DNA from: an uncultured Kordiimonas sp. | GTDB taxonomy: Bacteria; Pseudomonadota; Alphaproteobacteria; Sphingomonadales; Kordiimonadaceae | Length of the DNA: 64,000 nt | Reading direction: 5' to 3' | Assembly (NCBI GenBank): GCA_947503575.1 | Contig: CANNDZ010000001.1 | Span: 1,488,001-1,552,000, forward strand | Notes under the pieces: generated by a model | Databases searched by the model: none | Told to the model about the DNA's origin: nothing | What the model saw: only the letters and a program-made list of their open reading frames with translations | In this document: in pieces, positions 5,474-12,566 of the stretch | Position numbering within the stretch: position 1 is the first letter of the stretch | Layout of the letters: the number at the start of each line of letters is the position of its first letter | Translations under genes and position numbers: made by a program

Positions 5474-6715
5474 GTGACGACAATAGATATCATCTTCATT
5501 GCAGGCCTTGTTGCATTGCTTGGTCTTAGCTTGTTTCAGCTTGTGCGTTTAAAGCAGGCGACCCGCAATGACGCCGGAGAGCATATCAGTAAGCTGATTG
5601 AAATCCAGACGCGAATTGATATTTTGTCATCGCAAGCTGATGCTCGGGAAAAAGCAATACGCTCCGAATTCCAGGGCAACCGCGAAGAAATAAGTAAAGC
5701 AATCAATGACCTGTCGGACACGTTGCGTAAATTTGGTCAGCACCAAACTGACCAGCAGGAGCAGATGCGCAATAAGCTTGATGATAAAATGAAGGAACTC
5801 CGTACGGAAAACAGCCAAAAGCTGGATGAAATGCGCAAAACTGTTGACGAGCATCTGCAAACAACCCTTGAAAAACGTCTGACTGAAAGTTTTAAAACGG
5901 TGTCCGACAGGCTTGAGCAGGTACACAAGGGCTTGGGTGAAATGCAGGCTCTTGCGACAGGCGTGGGGGATTTGAAACGTGTGCTGACAAACGTTAAAAC
6001 ACGCGGCACGTTTGGCGAGGTACAATTAGGATTGCTGATAGAAGATATCCTGACACCAAACCAGTTTGTGGCGAATTATGATTGCGGCAAATCCGGCGGC
6101 CAGCAGCGAGTAGAGTTTGGTATTCGCATGCCCGGAGCAGAGACAGAAGTGTATTTGCCTGTTGATGCCAAGTTTCCGACAGAAGATTATGAGCGCCTTC
6201 AGGCGGCGGTTGAAGCGGGTGATAAAGATGCTATTGCATTGGCCCAACGCGGTCTTTCCAACCAGGTAAAGTCTTTCGCCAAAGATATCGCGCAGAAATA
6301 TATTAACCCGCCTTACACAACGCCTTCAGCGATTTTATTTCTGCCCACAGAAGGACTGTATGCCGAAATGCTGCGCTTGCCGGGCTTCATTGAGGGCGTG
6401 CAGCGAGAGCTGAACGTCACTATTACAGGCCCAACAAACTTCCAGGTCTTGCTAACCACCTTCCGCATGGGCTTCCAACAGCTCGCTATGCAAGAACATG
6501 CCGCTGAAGTCTGGAAAGTGCTGGGTGCCGTTAAAAGGGAATTCAATAAATACGGCGAGCAAATCTCGTCAATGGGCAAGAGCGTCAAGGCACTCGAAAA
6601 CCATATAGATAAGCTGGAAACCCGCAAAAACGTGATGTTACGGGCGCTCAAGACGGTTGATGAGGTTGAGGAAGGCGAAGCGAAGACGATGTTGCCTGAT
6701 CAGTCTGATATATAG
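5474..6715 (+). CDS. rmuC: DNA recombination protein RmuC
   Basis: 413 residues, GTG start with AAAGGA upstream. An N-terminal membrane anchor (about 5-25) is followed by a long coiled coil rich in Glu, Lys and Gln (35-160). The conserved RmuC core begins around LKRVLTNVKTRGTFGE and includes VYLPVDAKFP and FLPTEGLYAEM. RmuC has a nuclease-like fold and limits DNA inversions at short repeats. The length fits the family. It appears monocistronic. Confidence 0.95.
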   Translation: MTTIDIIFIAGLVALLGLSLFQLVRLKQATRNDAGEHISKLIEIQTRIDILSSQADAREKAIRSEFQGNREEISKAINDLSDTLRKFGQHQTDQQEQMRNKLDDKMKELRTENSQKLDEMRKTVDEHLQTTLEKRLTESFKTVSDRLEQVHKGLGEMQALATGVGDLKRVLTNVKTRGTFGEVQLGLLIEDILTPNQFVANYDCGKSGGQQRVEFGIRMPGAETEVYLPVDAKFPTEDYERLQAAVEAGDKDAIALAQRGLSNQVKSFAKDIAQKYINPPYTTPSAILFLPTEGLYAEMLRLPGFIEGVQRELNVTITGPTNFQVLLTTFRMGFQQLAMQEHAAEVWKVLGAVKREFNKYGEQISSMGKSVKALENHIDKLETRKNVMLRALKTVDEVEEGEAKTMLPDQSDI

Positions 6716-6829
6716 ACGGCCTTTTTTGAAAGCCCCTGCATAATTTCGTCAGGCCTTTGACCATCGTCAAGTCAGGGTTTGCTGTACATTCCTACAATTT
6801 TTCCAATGTCCGGACAAAGGAGGGTACAG

Positions 6830-7069
6830 ATGAGCCACGCGCCTCATGAATTGAGGGAAGATTTTCCAGAGTTTGAAGATCAAATCCATACACTGAAAGA
6901 GAGTAACCAACATTTCAGAAAACTTGCTGACGAGTATCATGTCGTCAATCGCGAAATCCATCGTATCGAAATTGGTGACGAGCATGTGTCGCAGTTTGCA
7001 GAGGATGATATGCGCAAGAAGCGGATGACACTAAAAGATGAAATCTATGCGATGCTGAAGGCCAGCTAA
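6830..7069 (+). CDS. YdcH/DUF465 family small protein
   Basis: 79 residues from ATG 6830, preceded by AAGGAGGGT at ideal spacing; a longer in-frame start at 6779 lacks a ribosome site. The protein is charged, helical and cytosolic. It has the DUF465 pattern of FPEFEDQIHTLKESNQHF early and KKRMTLKDEIYAML near the end. The function of this widespread alphaproteobacterial family is not established. It stands alone between rmuC and a strong terminator. Confidence 0.88.
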   Translation: MSHAPHELREDFPEFEDQIHTLKESNQHFRKLADEYHVVNREIHRIEIGDEHVSQFAEDDMRKKRMTLKDEIYAMLKAS

Positions 7070-7094
7070 CGTTTTAGATGCCAGGGAAGCGGAG

Positions 7095-7121
7095 AAAGAG
7101 GGCGTTATCGCCCTCTTTTTT
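7095..7121 (+). terminator. Rho-independent terminator
   Basis: A perfect 10-bp stem AAAGAGGGCG / CGCCCTCTTT with a TTAT loop and a T-run. It ends the YdcH-like transcript just before the ArsR promoter. Confidence 0.92.
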
Positions 7122-7127
7122 ATCGCC

Positions 7128-7155
7128 TTGACATGCATCTTTTAAGCTGCATAAT
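7128..7155 (+). promoter_or_regulatory. sigma-70 type promoter of the ArsR/SRPBCC pair
   Basis: TTGACA (7128-7133) and CATAAT (7150-7155) are separated by 16 bp; ATAATA one base on gives a 17-bp spacer. The -10 lies inside the large palindrome at 7133-7177, which implies repression by its own product. Confidence 0.7.
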
Positions 7156-7177
7156 AAATGCAGTCAAAAGGATGCAT
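7133..7177. promoter_or_regulatory. 45-bp nested palindromic operator
   Basis: The site is an interrupted palindrome. The outer arms are ATGCATC/GATGCAT, the middle arms TTT/AAA and the inner arms CTGCAT/ATGCAG, around an AATAA centre. It covers the -10 region up to the ribosome site of the ArsR gene. This is the expected position for an autoregulatory ArsR operator, possibly two dimers bound side by side. Confidence 0.75.
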
Positions 7178-7178
7178 T

Positions 7179-7607
7179 ATGAGCCACCCCGACGATCCTG
7201 TTTTTAAGGCGCTGGCAGACCCGACCCGGCGCATGATGCTGGATAAGCTATTTGCGACACCCGGTCTTACAGTAGGGGATTTGGTGGCCAACACAGGGAT
7301 GCGTCGCCAGTCCGCCAGTAAACACCTCAAGCTGCTAGAGCAGGCAGGTTTGGTACATGTGGAATGGGAAGGTCGGGAGAAAAGGCATTTTTTGAACCCC
7401 GTGCCAATTCGCGAAATTGCACTACGGTGGGTCGATAAATTCAACCAGGTACAGGCAGATGCTTTAATTGCCATGAAGCAGGCTCTGGAAGACCCGGACC
7501 AGAAGAACAGCGAACCTGAGCAAGCCATGGATAGCCTGCCTGAAGAGGGTATAAAAAGCCCGCAGGGACCAATAGTTACATCGTTCTTTACCCCTATAGA
7601 GGACTGA
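7179..7607 (+). CDS. ArsR-family winged-helix transcriptional regulator
   Basis: 142 residues from ATG 7179, with AAAAGGA 6 bp upstream; an ATG at 7158 lies inside the operator and is unlikely. The winged helix runs from about residue 5 to 90. The ALADPTRRMMLDKLF helix and the recognition helix RRQSASKHLKLLEQAGLV are typical of the ArsR subgroup paired with SRPBCC proteins. No CxC metal site is visible, so a metal inducer is unlikely. It shares a transcript with the SRPBCC gene 43 bp downstream. Confidence 0.93.
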   Translation: MSHPDDPVFKALADPTRRMMLDKLFATPGLTVGDLVANTGMRRQSASKHLKLLEQAGLVHVEWEGREKRHFLNPVPIREIALRWVDKFNQVQADALIAMKQALEDPDQKNSEPEQAMDSLPEEGIKSPQGPIVTSFFTPIED

Positions 7608-7650
7608 CATAGCTGATTGATAAACGGGTGCACAAGTAAAGGACCAAGCA

Positions 7651-8127
7651 ATGCAAACGCCTGAATTTTATTATGTGATCTTGATTGATGCACCCCGCAC
7701 CCGGGTTTGGAAGGCTTTAACGACCGGCGAATTTACCAAGCAATATTGGCATCAGACCGAGGTCCAGTCAGATTGGACAGAAGGTAGTTCTGTTGAGTTT
7801 TTGACGATGTCAGATGATGGCCCGATCGCTGGATGTATCGGCACTGTGCTGGAGGCAGATGAACCCTCCCTATTAAGCTACACGTGGCATTTTCCTTTAA
7901 ACCCCAACTGTGCTGGTGAAGAACCATCACGCATTACTTTTCAACTGATAGATGTTGCGGGCAGTACAAAACTGATTGTTCGTCATCATGGCTTTGCAAA
8001 CGAGAATAGCACTACATACCAAATGGTGAGGGATGGCTGGCCTTATGTCCTTTCTGGTCTGAAGACCCTGTGTGAGGCTGGCTCAACCTGCGATTTCTCT
8101 ATGTTGGACCAAGTCGCGGGAACGTAA
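7651..8127 (+). CDS. SRPBCC (AHSA1-like) domain protein
   Basis: 158 residues, ATG with AAAGGACC upstream. It starts with the typical strand (YYVILIDAPRTRVWKALTT) and contains a GxxxExxxxxxxSYTWHF-like strand near 70-85. The fold is a hydrophobic ligand-binding START-like cavity. ArsR-SRPBCC pairs are very common; the partner may bind the small molecule sensed by the system, but ligands are mostly unknown. No terminator is obvious after its stop. Confidence 0.9.
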   Translation: MQTPEFYYVILIDAPRTRVWKALTTGEFTKQYWHQTEVQSDWTEGSSVEFLTMSDDGPIAGCIGTVLEADEPSLLSYTWHFPLNPNCAGEEPSRITFQLIDVAGSTKLIVRHHGFANENSTTYQMVRDGWPYVLSGLKTLCEAGSTCDFSMLDQVAGT

Positions 8128-8242
8128 TCAAAAAACAATGAGGGTGGGTCAGCAAGCCAACCGGATGCTGTTTGCGGTGAAGCGTGCGCAAAACAGGGTG
8201 GGTGCTATTGAAGTCCTGTGTGATGATGCCTAAGTTACAAAT

Positions 8243-8341
8243 GTAGCAACAAGACAGACCTGAAAACAGGCGGTGCTACGAAAAACGACAACGACAGCCC
8301 GTGCTAGGCAAAAATAGGGCAATAAGCCCATCGCAGAGCAC
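8243..8341 (+). ncRNA. structured leader upstream of the Arg-rich small ORF
   Basis: Two nested hairpins are seen. The first is GTAGCA (8243-8248) pairing with TGCTAC (8274-8279), with CCTG-aaaa-CAGG inside. The second is GTGCT (8301-8305) pairing with AGCAC (8337-8341), with GGGC-aataa-GCCC inside. They end about 20 bp before the ATG of the small ORF. The pairings suggest a folded 5' leader. No known riboswitch class is recognised. The 235 bases between the SRPBCC stop and this ORF otherwise hold only a weak 31-residue frame at 8138-8233. Confidence 0.4.
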
Positions 8342-8362
8342 TCATAATGAGCGAGGATAAAA

Positions 8363-8503
8363 ATGTTTACCAATTTGATTGCCAGCGCACGCCCTGTAAG
8401 AGGTTTGCCTAACGCGACGCAGCGAGTTAATCGCGTGCCGTCCCGGTCGCGCCGCCATCGCAGGCGTCAGGAACGCAATTCCCGCCTGACATCTGCAGCG
8501 TAA
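8363..8503 (+). CDS. Arg-rich 46-residue small protein
   Basis: ATG 8363 is preceded by GAGG at 7-8 bp spacing, and the frame is open for 46 codons. The product is strongly basic, with the cluster SRSRRHRRRQER at about 27-38, which suggests RNA or DNA binding. No family is recognised; it is not clearly DUF1127. It lies between a folded leader and a hairpin array ending in a terminator-like hairpin. It may therefore be the coding part of an sRNA precursor transcript. Confidence 0.45.
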   Translation: MFTNLIASARPVRGLPNATQRVNRVPSRSRRHRRRQERNSRLTSAA

Positions 8504-8520
8504 CCGCCAACGACTTGGGT

Positions 8521-8758
8521 CTGCGATCGCCCTTAAGCTCCAGCTTATGAACTTATAGCCCTTACGCGATCGTAGATTCTGGCCGGACTTGGGTGCGGAT
8601 CACGCCCCTGACCCTAGCCCCTAGTGCCCATCCGGGTCCGGCCAACTTATAGCTCCTTGCGGACTAGCCCCTATCACACGGTCCGCAAAATCTGGTGTAT
8701 AACCCTCCCAAGGAAACACACCAACTTTAAGGCATCCCCTTTACCCGGGGGATGCCTT
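8521..8758 (+). ncRNA. candidate sRNA array of consecutive hairpins with C-rich loops
   Basis: Several stems follow each other. H1 is CTGCGATCGC/GCGATCGTAG (8521-8575). H2 is GGCCGGAC/GTCCGGCC (8581-8643). H3 is TTGCGGAC/GTCCGCAA (8657-8688). H4 is GGTGT/ACACC (8694-8722). The array closes with a hairpin at 8729-8758. Unpaired or loop parts repeat a C-rich motif: TAGCCC in H1, TAGCCCC in H2 and H3, CCCTCCC in H4. The words ACTTGGGT and ACTTATAGC also recur. The pattern indicates a structured RNA made of related units, not a protein gene. Its function is unknown; C-rich loops could pair with Shine-Dalgarno sequences. Confidence 0.5.
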
Positions 8759-8760
8759 TA
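8729..8760 (+). terminator. terminator-like hairpin ending the hairpin array
   Basis: AAGGCATCCCC pairs with GGGGATGCCTT around a short loop. The stem is strong but followed only by TTA rather than a long T-run, so termination may be partial or the stem may instead protect a 3' end. Confidence 0.5.
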
Positions 8761-8961
8761 CCATATCAGGGCTGTTGGCCGGCGGCGGTGCGTTGTTAGG
8801 TTTTTTGCAAGCACGCTGTACTGGGTTTTGATGTGCCTTACCGCGCTTGGGCACACGACCCGTATGAGTATGTATTAGTACTGATACAAAAGAATACACA
8901 ATTAGTGTCGAATTATAGCCATCTTTGCCATATACTTTGCCGAACAGCATGGGGGTGCACG

Positions 8962-9174
8962 ATGGCAATTGAGTTTTTACCCGTTATTGTGACGGATCGG
9001 ACGACAGGCAAGACGTTCAGACAATCGAGAGCGTCAGACAACTTTGGTATGCGCAAATATCGGCGGGCGCGAAAACTATTACCAGGTGTTTGGTACACCT
9101 ACCGCAATAGTTTTCATGATTATCCCGGGCAATACCAGTCTGGGAAAAAGGATTCATCCCGGCTTGTCGTTTAA
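8962..9174 (+). CDS. hypothetical small basic protein
   Basis: 70 residues from ATG 8962 with GGGGG 6 bp upstream. The frame extends further upstream but without a ribosome site. The sequence begins MAIEFLPVIVTDRTTGKTF and is rich in Arg, Tyr and Lys; it has no membrane segment. I recognise no family. The 200 bases before it show nothing definite. It converges with the minus-strand small membrane protein. Confidence 0.4.
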   Translation: MAIEFLPVIVTDRTTGKTFRQSRASDNFGMRKYRRARKLLPGVWYTYRNSFHDYPGQYQSGKKDSSRLVV

Positions 9175-9196
9175 CCAAATAGTCGGAAACTGCTTA

Positions 9197-9448
9197 TTAT
9201 TCGGCCCTGCGCTCAGCCCTTTTAGCAAGCTTGGTATTATCGTTCCTTAGTGCCCGGATTTCAGCGGTATTATAATTGGTTGCCCGCGTCAGTTGTGCCA
9301 CCTTGCCTTTAATGCCGATCAGCGCAAACGGCAGCATAATCCAGGCAATGGCAATCATCGCCACTACTGTAGCGACAGCTATCGCAATAGCCATATCGGT
9401 TCCGCCAGCGCCCCACATTCTCTCAAACCAACGGATCAAGTCCTGCAT
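9197..9448 (-). CDS. small single-span membrane protein
   Basis: 83 residues from ATG 9446-9448, chosen because AGGGGA stands 7 bp upstream. An amphipathic start (MQDLIRWFERMWG) is followed by one long hydrophobic helix (about 20-43) and a charged tail ending in KLAKRAERRAE that may form a short coiled coil. No family is recognised. It lies downstream of the phosphotransferase gene on the same strand, 45 bp after its stop, so the two may be co-transcribed. Confidence 0.6.
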   Translation of the reverse strand: MQDLIRWFERMWGAGGTDMAIAIAVATVVAMIAIAWIMLPFALIGIKGKVAQLTRATNYNTAEIRALRNDNTKLAKRAERRAE

Positions 9449-9493
9449 AGTGTGTCCCCTGCCAAACATACGCTTAACCATGCCGCCATGTAT

Positions 9494-10558
9494 CTAGGGG
9501 TGATTAAGCCAACCCATAGTTTGGCGCACAATCCTTATTGTTCTGTTAATTAGCCAACGCGTTGCAGCATCGTTTGCACCTTTTCCCAGCCTTTGCTCGT
9601 ATGCGACCCATCGCCTGAGCTGCTGATACAGCAGTATGAAGTTCCAGGCGTTGGACTGTATGTCCAGCACCTCCTTGCCGTAGCCTTTAGCGAACGCCGT
9701 CATCAACTGGCCGTCCGGATGTAAGGGAGCCGTCGACAAAGAGTAAGGTGATCTGATAGCCAGATAGGTCATCAGCCTTGCTGCATCTTCATAAACGGGT
9801 CCAAGGCGCGCACCCCACATATCAATGCCGATGATATCATTGCCGTTCACGAGTATATTGCTGGATGTAAAATCACCATGCAGCAAGGCGTGAGGCACCT
9901 TGGTGTCCAACAGCGACGCACTGGTATGAAAACGATCCCAAGCTGACCAAAACGTTTGGCTTTTTGTGATGGAAAGCCCTGAACTTTCTGGGCTTTCAAA
10001 GGGGAAACCTATTTTGCCGGTCAGTTTTTTTGCCAGTTTGTTTGCATCCAACGGAGCTGAAGCAATACAGGAAATATCGTGAAAGCCCCGAAGCCATTTG
10101 CCGGTATTCTCAATAAGCTTTAGTCGATTACCTGGCGAAAGAAGGCGCTGCCACAGATGCTTTTGCAACCGCTCAGCATCCTGCCAGCTCATCAGGATGG
10201 CAGGAACATCAGGCAGAAAAGTGATGGGTTTTGGCGCTAATAGCACCCTTGAGGTGTTAGCCGCTTTCGCAACCCGTTCCATGGCGCGGTATTGTATTTG
10301 AGGCGCTTGCGCCGACGATACACCGGGTCGGTATACCTTTAGAGCTAGCTTTTTGTCGCTTATGGTATTTGACAATTGATAGATGTCGCATTTGCGCGAA
10401 TTGCCGTTGGGGCCATCCGCCTGCCAGTTTGCAGCAGGTTCCACCGTATCAAGTGCGTCTGAGAGATCGTCAAGTAATTGGGTAATGTCTGGCACAAGGG
10501 GTCTACTGGTTAATTTGGCGGGATAAGCACTTGCCGAAGTGCCGCTTTTCTGGCGCAA
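9494..10558 (-). CDS. aminoglycoside phosphotransferase (APH)-like kinase
   Basis: 354 residues if the TTG at 10556-10558 is used; no good ribosome site is visible and a slightly later start is possible. The kinase-like core has the catalytic loop HGDFTSSN and the metal-binding IIGIDMWGA, as in APH/choline kinase enzymes. An N-lobe strand with KKLALKVYRPG could hold the ATP-binding Lys. Members phosphorylate sugars, choline, aminoglycosides or homoserine; the substrate is not deducible, and resistance should not be assumed. It is divergent from rnhB across only 40 bp. Confidence 0.82.
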   Translation of the reverse strand: MRQKSGTSASAYPAKLTSRPLVPDITQLLDDLSDALDTVEPAANWQADGPNGNSRKCDIYQLSNTISDKKLALKVYRPGVSSAQAPQIQYRAMERVAKAANTSRVLLAPKPITFLPDVPAILMSWQDAERLQKHLWQRLLSPGNRLKLIENTGKWLRGFHDISCIASAPLDANKLAKKLTGKIGFPFESPESSGLSITKSQTFWSAWDRFHTSASLLDTKVPHALLHGDFTSSNILVNGNDIIGIDMWGARLGPVYEDAARLMTYLAIRSPYSLSTAPLHPDGQLMTAFAKGYGKEVLDIQSNAWNFILLYQQLRRWVAYEQRLGKGANDAATRWLINRTIRIVRQTMGWLNHP

Positions 10559-10598
10559 TGCCGTTAACGCACCCTAACAAACCGGCAGTGGCTTTTCT

Positions 10599-11267
10599 AT
10601 GGACCTTTTTGATGCGATGCAGGTAGCGATCCCGAGCGGGCCTGATTTTACTGCCGAGATATCCATGGCTCGAGGGCAAGGTGCAGATACTTGCAAGCTG
10701 ATGGTTTGCGGTGTTGACGAGGTAGGGCGCGGGCCCCTTGCGGGCCCAGTGGTTGCGTCGGCGGTTATTCTTGATCCTGCACGTATTCCTGTTGGCCTTG
10801 ATGATAGCAAGCGCCTGACAGCAAAAAAGCGTGAACTTTTGTACGAGAGCATTATGGAGACGGCGATCGCGCACGCCACTGCGCAGGCCTCTGTCGAGGA
10901 AATTGATAGCCTCAATATATTGGAAGCGTCGATGCTGGCGATGCGCCGGGCGGTGGTTGGCTTGAGCACAACGCCAATAGCGGCTTTAGTCGACGGAAAC
11001 CGCGACCCGGGATTGGGGGGAATTCCCACCAGAACACTAATCAAGGGGGATAGTCGCTCTCTTTCCATTGCTGCAGCGAGCATTCTTGCGAAAGTTTTTC
11101 GCGATCGTTTGATGGCAAAACTGGGTGAAGACTTCCCCGAGTATGGATGGGCGCAAAACGCAGGATATGGTGTTGAAAAACACCGGCAGGCACTAAAGCT
11201 TGTGGGGGTGACGCCTCACCACCGTCGAAGTTTTGCCCCGATTCGATATATTTTAGATGAAGAATAA
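10599..11267 (+). CDS. rnhB: ribonuclease HII
   Basis: 222 residues. The hallmark [20 protein letters not shown] gives catalytic Asp40 and Glu41; further acidic residues lie in ALVDGNRDP and in the [15 protein letters not shown] helix. The enzyme removes single ribonucleotides and RNA/DNA hybrids. About 35 residues precede the core, longer than many homologues, so translation could begin later (for example Met23). It is followed after 153 bp by ccrM, an adjacency often seen in Alphaproteobacteria. Confidence 0.95.
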
Positions 11268-11280
11268 CTAACAAGATATT

Positions 11281-11331
11281 GATTCATATTAAAGAATCAC
11301 TTGACCTCGATTCGCTTTCGACTCATGATTC
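11281..11331 (+). promoter_or_regulatory. cluster of five GANTC sites upstream of ccrM
   Basis: GANTC occurs at 11281, 11294, 11309, 11320 and 11327, five times in 51 bp, in the gap between rnhB and ccrM. These are the sites methylated by the adjacent enzyme. In Caulobacter, ccrM transcription is known to depend on methylation state, so this is a plausible feedback or cell-cycle control region. A TTGACC at 11301 could be a -35 element; no full CtrA box was found. Confidence 0.65.
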
Positions 11332-11343
11332 CTCCTGAATTTG

Positions 11344-12566
<1,223 letters not shown>

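Follow-up and report, generated by a model that had tools for sequence, protein, structure and literature searches.

The window (the whole 64,000-nt stretch of DNA analysed here, from a genome of 3.6 Mb designated G000) carries a locus at which an ORF for a small arginine-rich protein is preceded by a promoter of the type found before groES and followed by an array of four stem-loops and a terminator hairpin (Table 1). The small ORF with its downstream hairpins recurs in 27 of the 29 Kordiimonadaceae genomes sampled, some of them incomplete, and in 8 of the 9 genera, a count that combines a start-site pattern, a leader model and inspection. The reading that we favour for the whole, with modest confidence, is that of a stress-responsive transcript which would both encode a protein and hold a reservoir of small RNAs (sRNAs) with loops that pair in trans.

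Table 1. Features of the locus, in window coordinates; z-scores are for each hairpin folded separately with short flanks.
Feature	Position	Strand	Remarks
Upstream box TTTGCGGTGAAGCGTGCGCAAA	8171..8192	+	Inverted repeat here; about 34 nt before the -35 element
groES-type (RpoH-like) promoter, TTGAA-N18-TAAGTT	8208..8236	+	-35 element and spacing as in groES
5'-terminal leader hairpin, TGTAGC...GCTACG with CCTG/CAGG nested	8242..8280	+	Predicted
Leader motif CGACAG	8292..8297	+	GACAG in the aligned leaders
Shine-Dalgarno sequence GAGGATA	8353..8359	+	Upstream of the 46-aa ORF
Small ORF	8363..8503	+	ATG start; 46-aa arginine-rich small protein, MFT...RSRRHRRRxxRxxR
Hairpin 1	8517..8579	+	z -3.1; GCTCC and TATAGCCC inside
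Hairpin 2	8580..8644	+	z -3.8; covariation; loop core CCCTGACCCTAGCCCC at 8606-8621
Hairpin 3	8657..8688	+	z -3.2; loop ACTAGCCCCTATCACAC
Hairpin 4	8693..8723	+	z -1.1; loop TAACCCTCCCAAGG, anti-Shine-Dalgarno-like
Terminator hairpin	8729..8758	+	z -4.3

The 46-codon ORF and its proper ribosome site, first proposed from the letters of the window alone, are confirmed. GAGGATA-N(1-10)-ATGTTTA precedes the small ORF in many Kordiimonadaceae genomes, with GAGGACA or GAGGAG as the Shine-Dalgarno variant at some orthologous loci. By codon comparison the ORF is under purifying selection, the dN/dS values lying between 0 and 0.36 in 10 overlapping genome pairs. An alignment of 26 protein sequences from the 27 genomes (two are identical) has M1, F2 and three arginines invariant, with T3 and a fourth arginine nearly so; 24 of the proteins begin with MFT, one with MFI and one with MTNFT. 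When these 26 proteins were searched, Pfam gave a single match, at E 0.32, and NCBIfam two, at E 0.042 and 0.11, all at chance level; the window's own protein had zero matches in Pfam, NCBIfam or PHROG, and its best chain among solved structures stood at E 0.95.

Among the 29 family genomes, the locus seems to be missing from G008 and G019; a candidate for G019 (L243), taken from weak protein hits, had no matching ORF. The weakest loci are those of G002, which has a short array and was missed by both models, G026 and G024. Locus DNA was found by blastn in 14 of 59 genomes, this one included, and a covariance model of hairpin 2 with a cut-off of E 0.1 picked up 18 of the 29 family genomes (two hits lay near 0.08); run with stricter filters over 385 genomes of the class at E <=0.01, it returned this genome only. 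The leader model, also with stricter filters, gave hits in 9 genomes outside the family at E 0.001-0.09, and the best of these in four genomes (L319 to L322) were rejected for want of an ORF with an array. Plasmid relatives were set aside as well, the matches being two weak ones in Neisseria. The neighbourhood is largely shared: rnhB lies near the locus in 17 of 20 stretches, rmuC in 15 and either or both in 18, and ccrM is beside rnhB in 16 of the 17 stretches that have it, while the two genomes of genus g3 have neither rnhB nor rmuC nearby. The window itself (5474-12566) has the order rmuC - locus - rnhB - ccrM that is common in the family. After the array lies a 70-aa ORF (8962-9174) with relatives at 61-73% identity in G006, G018 and G014 and no family match. 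A title-level search of the literature on small RNAs of Kordiimonas or Kordiimonadaceae yielded nothing on this locus.

The promoter was judged against the groES genes of the genus, 19 of 19 of which have TTGAA-N18-TA[ACG]ATA. The pattern TTGAA-N18-TANNT stands upstream of 20 of 25 orthologous loci, as compared with 2 of 322 control genes sampled in G000 and 2 of 285 in G018; the five loci that do not fit comprise two with N17, two with TTGTA and the poorly fitting, aberrant promoter of G002. A matrix made from groES scores 10 or more in 17 of the 25 loci and in 12 of 2000 random stretches of 260 nt. The site in this genome has a moderate score of 6.6, a value reached by 5 of 200 shuffles. From the likeness to groES we infer control by RpoH. 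HSP20 proved a weak second heat-shock yardstick, a loose pattern fitting only 11 of 30 loci, though several HSP20 loci show, by eye, CTTGAA or CTTGCAAG with CCTAAAT. The one strict match to the groES-type promoter pattern among the 322 sampled G000 genes belongs to lepA, for elongation factor 4 (L349:10413).

Upstream of this promoter lies TGCG, whose distance to TTGAA is constant in 23 of 25 loci as counted by script, other genera included. The box in which it lies here, TTTGCGNTGAAGCGTGCGCAAA, is a clear inverted repeat in some genomes and may be an activator site. Downstream, 20 of 24 leaders are predicted to form a local hairpin at the 5' end, the stems differing between them (the exceptions are G009, G021, G025 and G028). 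GACAG is present in all 24 aligned leaders, a count that is partly by construction since the leaders were cut at the motif; outside the alignment, G002 has two copies, G026 has the motif and G024 lacks it.

That four stem-loops and a terminator-like hairpin follow the ORF was tested by folding against shuffles and holds. For the 3' region (8504-8762) the folding energy is -101.8 kcal/mol, whereas shuffles average -73.0 (z -6.4, 0 of 200 shuffles as good). Hairpin 4, from its z-score alone, is unremarkable on its own in this genome. Across the family the array folds have z-scores of -2.9 to -7.8 in 25 arrays (60 dinucleotide shuffles each) and of -4.0 and -4.1 in G026 and G024, so that all 27 of 27 arrays beat dinucleotide shuffles. 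Array ends were set by a script-found terminator in 19 of 25 cases and placed by hand in the other six, among which G022 and G025 are without a clear T-run terminator; the end of the G024 array is uncertain and was set arbitrarily. The arrays of G002 and G026 are short, the latter having one hairpin and the terminator. TCCC occurs in the stem or loop of the terminator hairpin in 15 of the 19 script-found cases; in this genome the terminator loop itself is without it. A scan of the window with Rfam gave 0 matches above the gathering threshold, and a known Rfam RNA was rejected, the sole hit being SAM-Chlorobi at a chance-level 15.1 bits.

The first-pass annotation also saw repeated loop parts, shared C-rich loops and related units, and these fared differently. 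TAGCCC does repeat, with 3 copies in the array, but CCCTCCC occurs once, in hairpin 4. ACTTGGGT and ACTTATAGC have two copies each, and repeated 8-mers number 8 where shuffles average 0.76 (1 of 500 shuffles reaches 8). Neither word is in any of the 24 other arrays compared, so both are peculiar to this genome, and the recurrence, above chance as it is here, does not mark conserved duplicated units. Specific loop words are conserved; of 25 arrays, however, only 8 have a clear excess of unpaired C ('clear' being an excess reached by at most 3 of 60 shuffles), and the richness in C is therefore partly a matter of strand composition. CCCTAGCCCC is present in 18 of 25 arrays, genera g3, g4 and g6 among them, and 16 of 25 genomes have CTCCC at some point of the array. 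Between genera the stems differ completely while the loop words persist.

All 15 genomes of one alignment share the 16-base loop core of hairpin 2, CCCTGACCCTAGCCCC, without a change; they were gathered by this very word with one mismatch allowed (14 of the 15 also by blastn), and four more divergent relatives, G004, G013, G016 and G023, have an altered core. A second copy of the word in this genome, with one mismatch (C1:292230), was rejected, since the reading direction of the gene there matches that of the word and pairing is excluded. The stem below the loop is in two parts in most of 20 sequences inspected, G013 and G016 being the most irregular. In 19 aligned sequences 92.8% of the cells are paired, against 85.3% when shuffled, two-sided changes fall at 6 of 11 pairs, and the covariation score is 0.309 against 0.177, which 0 of 500 shuffles reach; versions slid along the alignment pair at most 53.6%. 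The alignment was fitted to the hairpin model, which favours that model, and covariation was counted for hairpin 2 alone; for this hairpin the compensatory changes on which the proposal of an RNA array depended are there.

These results bear on whether the RNA matters at all. The small protein alone might be what counts, with the hairpins no more than intergenic repeats in decay or an elaborate kind of terminator region, and the purifying selection on the protein and the wholly different stems of different genera would agree with that; the covariation and conserved loop of hairpin 2, together with fold z-scores no higher than -2.9 in all 27 arrays, make it very improbable.

Loop-to-mRNA pairing energies in initiation regions were compared with those in gene interiors for 326 genes of G000 and for 289 genes of G018 with that genome's own loops; the first ATG served as the start codon, a source of noise. 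The idea that the loops pair with Shine-Dalgarno-like G-rich sites survives in part. As far as such energies indicate, only the CUCCC-type loops, those of hairpin 4 and the terminator, lean to ribosome-binding sites, and they do not do so in every test. In G000 the loop of hairpin 4 has a preference for initiation regions (p 1.4e-4, with 0 of 40 shuffled loops equalling it), while in G018 the difference from gene interiors is not significant (p 0.1, 2 of 40). The terminator loop does so in G018 (p 2e-6, 0 of 40), and its preference in G000 (p 2e-8) is discounted, as 26 of 40 shuffled loops equal it. Hairpin 1 gives p 0.51 in G000 (14 of 40 shuffles as strong) and p 0.89 in G018 (8 of 40), and hairpin 3 p 0.034 (9 of 40) and p 0.62 (2 of 40). 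The hairpin 2 loop has no preference over gene interiors, with p 0.25 in G000 and p 0.89 in G018, and leans to initiation regions beyond most of its own shuffles, 1 of 40 being as strong in G000 and G018 alike. The loop of the cuckoo RNAs (see below), as a positive control in G000, gives p 3.5e-13 with 0 of 40; the 16S anti-Shine-Dalgarno sequence gives p 9e-10 with 17 of 40 shuffles equalling it, which shows the shuffle test to be conservative when loops are short. In an initial test on 40 genes of the window, hairpin 4 had p 0.011 and the other loops nothing significant.

In G000, hairpin 4 is predicted to pair best with the start of lpd, with 12 contiguous pairs at -21.6, the best of 326; the 12-nt complement lies at 8700-8711. 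This gene encodes dihydrolipoyl dehydrogenase (TIGR01350, above cut-off) and belongs to an operon for a 2-oxoacid dehydrogenase, the other subunits of which have matches below cut-off only. The initiation region is kept in G018, where the lpd proteins are 89% identical to those of G000, and the pairing ranks fourth of 289 there with 9 contiguous pairs at -18.1. The pairing was picked post hoc and may be due to chance; it falls from 12 to 9 pairs in G018 and could reflect a conserved strong Shine-Dalgarno sequence. For the hairpin 2 loop a possible target is a 185-aa ORF (L348:15319) that has GCTAGGGTC, complementary to the loop, just before its start, at -32.2 kcal/mol the best of 326.

Alternatively, the array may act in cis, stabilising the mRNA of the small protein or serving as the binding site for the protein's autoregulation, without trans-acting sRNAs. 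The array follows the small ORF in all 27 loci found, and the hairpin 2 model matches the array locus only (18 hits in 18 genomes); the stems are long, with structure kept while sequence turns over, and the most conserved loop, that of hairpin 2, does not prefer initiation regions to gene interiors. Yet a 16-base loop common to 15 genomes exceeds what stability needs, though a protein-binding site would explain it, and so does the preference of hairpin 4 for initiation regions in G000. We regard action in cis alone as unlikely, while still a serious contender.

C-rich loops are functional in the stand-alone sRNAs GsrN of Caulobacter and sX13 of Xanthomonas, which the present array resembles in its loops; they are not known to have a gene for a small arginine-rich protein ahead. 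Closer in layout is ccaF1 (RSP_6037)-CcsR1-4 of Rhodobacter sphaeroides, where, in published accounts, a DUF1127 protein gene is followed by four sRNAs and a terminator behind an RpoHI/HII promoter, and the CcsR sRNAs are matured by RNase E and affect C1 metabolism and pyruvate dehydrogenase (PMC10253847, PMC8625941, PMC8307010). The RFM SmelA075/SmelA099 RNAs of the cuckoo RNA family in Rhizobiales are described as adjacent hairpins with CCUCCUCCC loops and variable stems (PMC3927594). The present locus shares with the latter its several adjacent hairpins, conserved C-rich loops and variable stems, but the cuckoo loop is an anti-Shine-Dalgarno sequence, which the main loop here is not evidently.

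The analogy with RSP_6037/CcsR drawn in the first-pass annotation is supported as to layout: the groES-like, RpoH-type promoter pattern, the gene for a small basic protein, and a 3' array of hairpins with C-rich loops ending in a terminator, all apparently on one transcript, agree with what those accounts describe for ccaF1-CcsR and the CIN1 arrays. The differences lie in the parts. The protein is without DUF1127 and shorter (36-51 aa across the family, theirs 71-72 aa), the loop words are CCCUAGCCCC and CUCCC where those of CIN1 are CCUCCUCCC, and the units are unlike one another whereas CIN1 units are near-copies. DUF1127 (PF06568) was found in 0 of 29 family genomes, by a search whose control was positive in 1 of 14 named genomes, and had no match among the 26 small proteins; hhalign of the small protein with a CcaF1-like protein gave a probability of 0.4%, and CCTCCTCCC is in 0 of 27 arrays. 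The tandem CCUCCUCCC hairpin pattern was missing from G000, the only family genome in that search, and present in 11 of 372 genomes of the class, with an evident array in G316. There, on the minus strand at about 830-1460 of L239, lies a textbook CIN1/CcsR locus, with a protein that matches DUF1127 at 1.5e-14, tandem CTCCTCCTCCC hairpin units and a terminator loop that carries CCTCCTCCC.

The annotation had left homology unclaimed, and it is still unsupported: with both DUF1127 and the CCUCCUCCC loop absent, the locus has a ccaF1-ccsR-like layout, and membership in that family is not supported. It might be a true but highly diverged member, with loops that have drifted and a protein no longer recognisable by its DUF1127 signature, as the order of the parts, the kind of promoter and the C-rich words even in the terminator, like those of the G316 array, would allow; given the uniform absence of DUF1127 from the family genomes and of CCTCCTCCC from the arrays, and the hhalign result, we think this improbable.

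In the favoured reading, a stress-responsive, protein-plus-sRNA transcript, a single RNA would be made from an RpoH-type (heat-shock sigma) promoter, presumably on heating, and would encode the arginine-rich small protein. Its structured 3' UTR would be a reservoir of at least one sRNA released by cleavage, with the C-rich loops kept open on long stems. Acting in trans, hairpin 4 and the terminator would pair through their CUCCC-type loops with G-rich ribosome-binding sites and reduce translation, lpd being a candidate target, and the conserved loop of hairpin 2 would pair with, or be bound by, some further partner. By analogy with CcaF1, the basic protein probably binds the array RNA and influences its processing.

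More tentatively, and less likely than not, Kordiimonadaceae may have built independently a heat-shock-type operon of mini-protein and C-loop array, with an unrelated arginine-rich protein and a new loop code, CCCUGACCCUAGCCCC, whose target would not be the Shine-Dalgarno sequence. The candidate pairing with lpd echoes the reported effect of CcsR on pyruvate dehydrogenase, so that a physiological role common to both systems can be tested directly. Carried on changing stems, the conserved loop of hairpin 2 is a concrete probe for its target. If the proposal is true, hairpin-array stress RNAs would have a second, apparently unrelated protein partner, and comparison of the two systems could reveal whether selection keeps the array, the basic protein or the coupling of the two. 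Protein-plus-array stress operons would then be a recurrent solution in Alphaproteobacteria.
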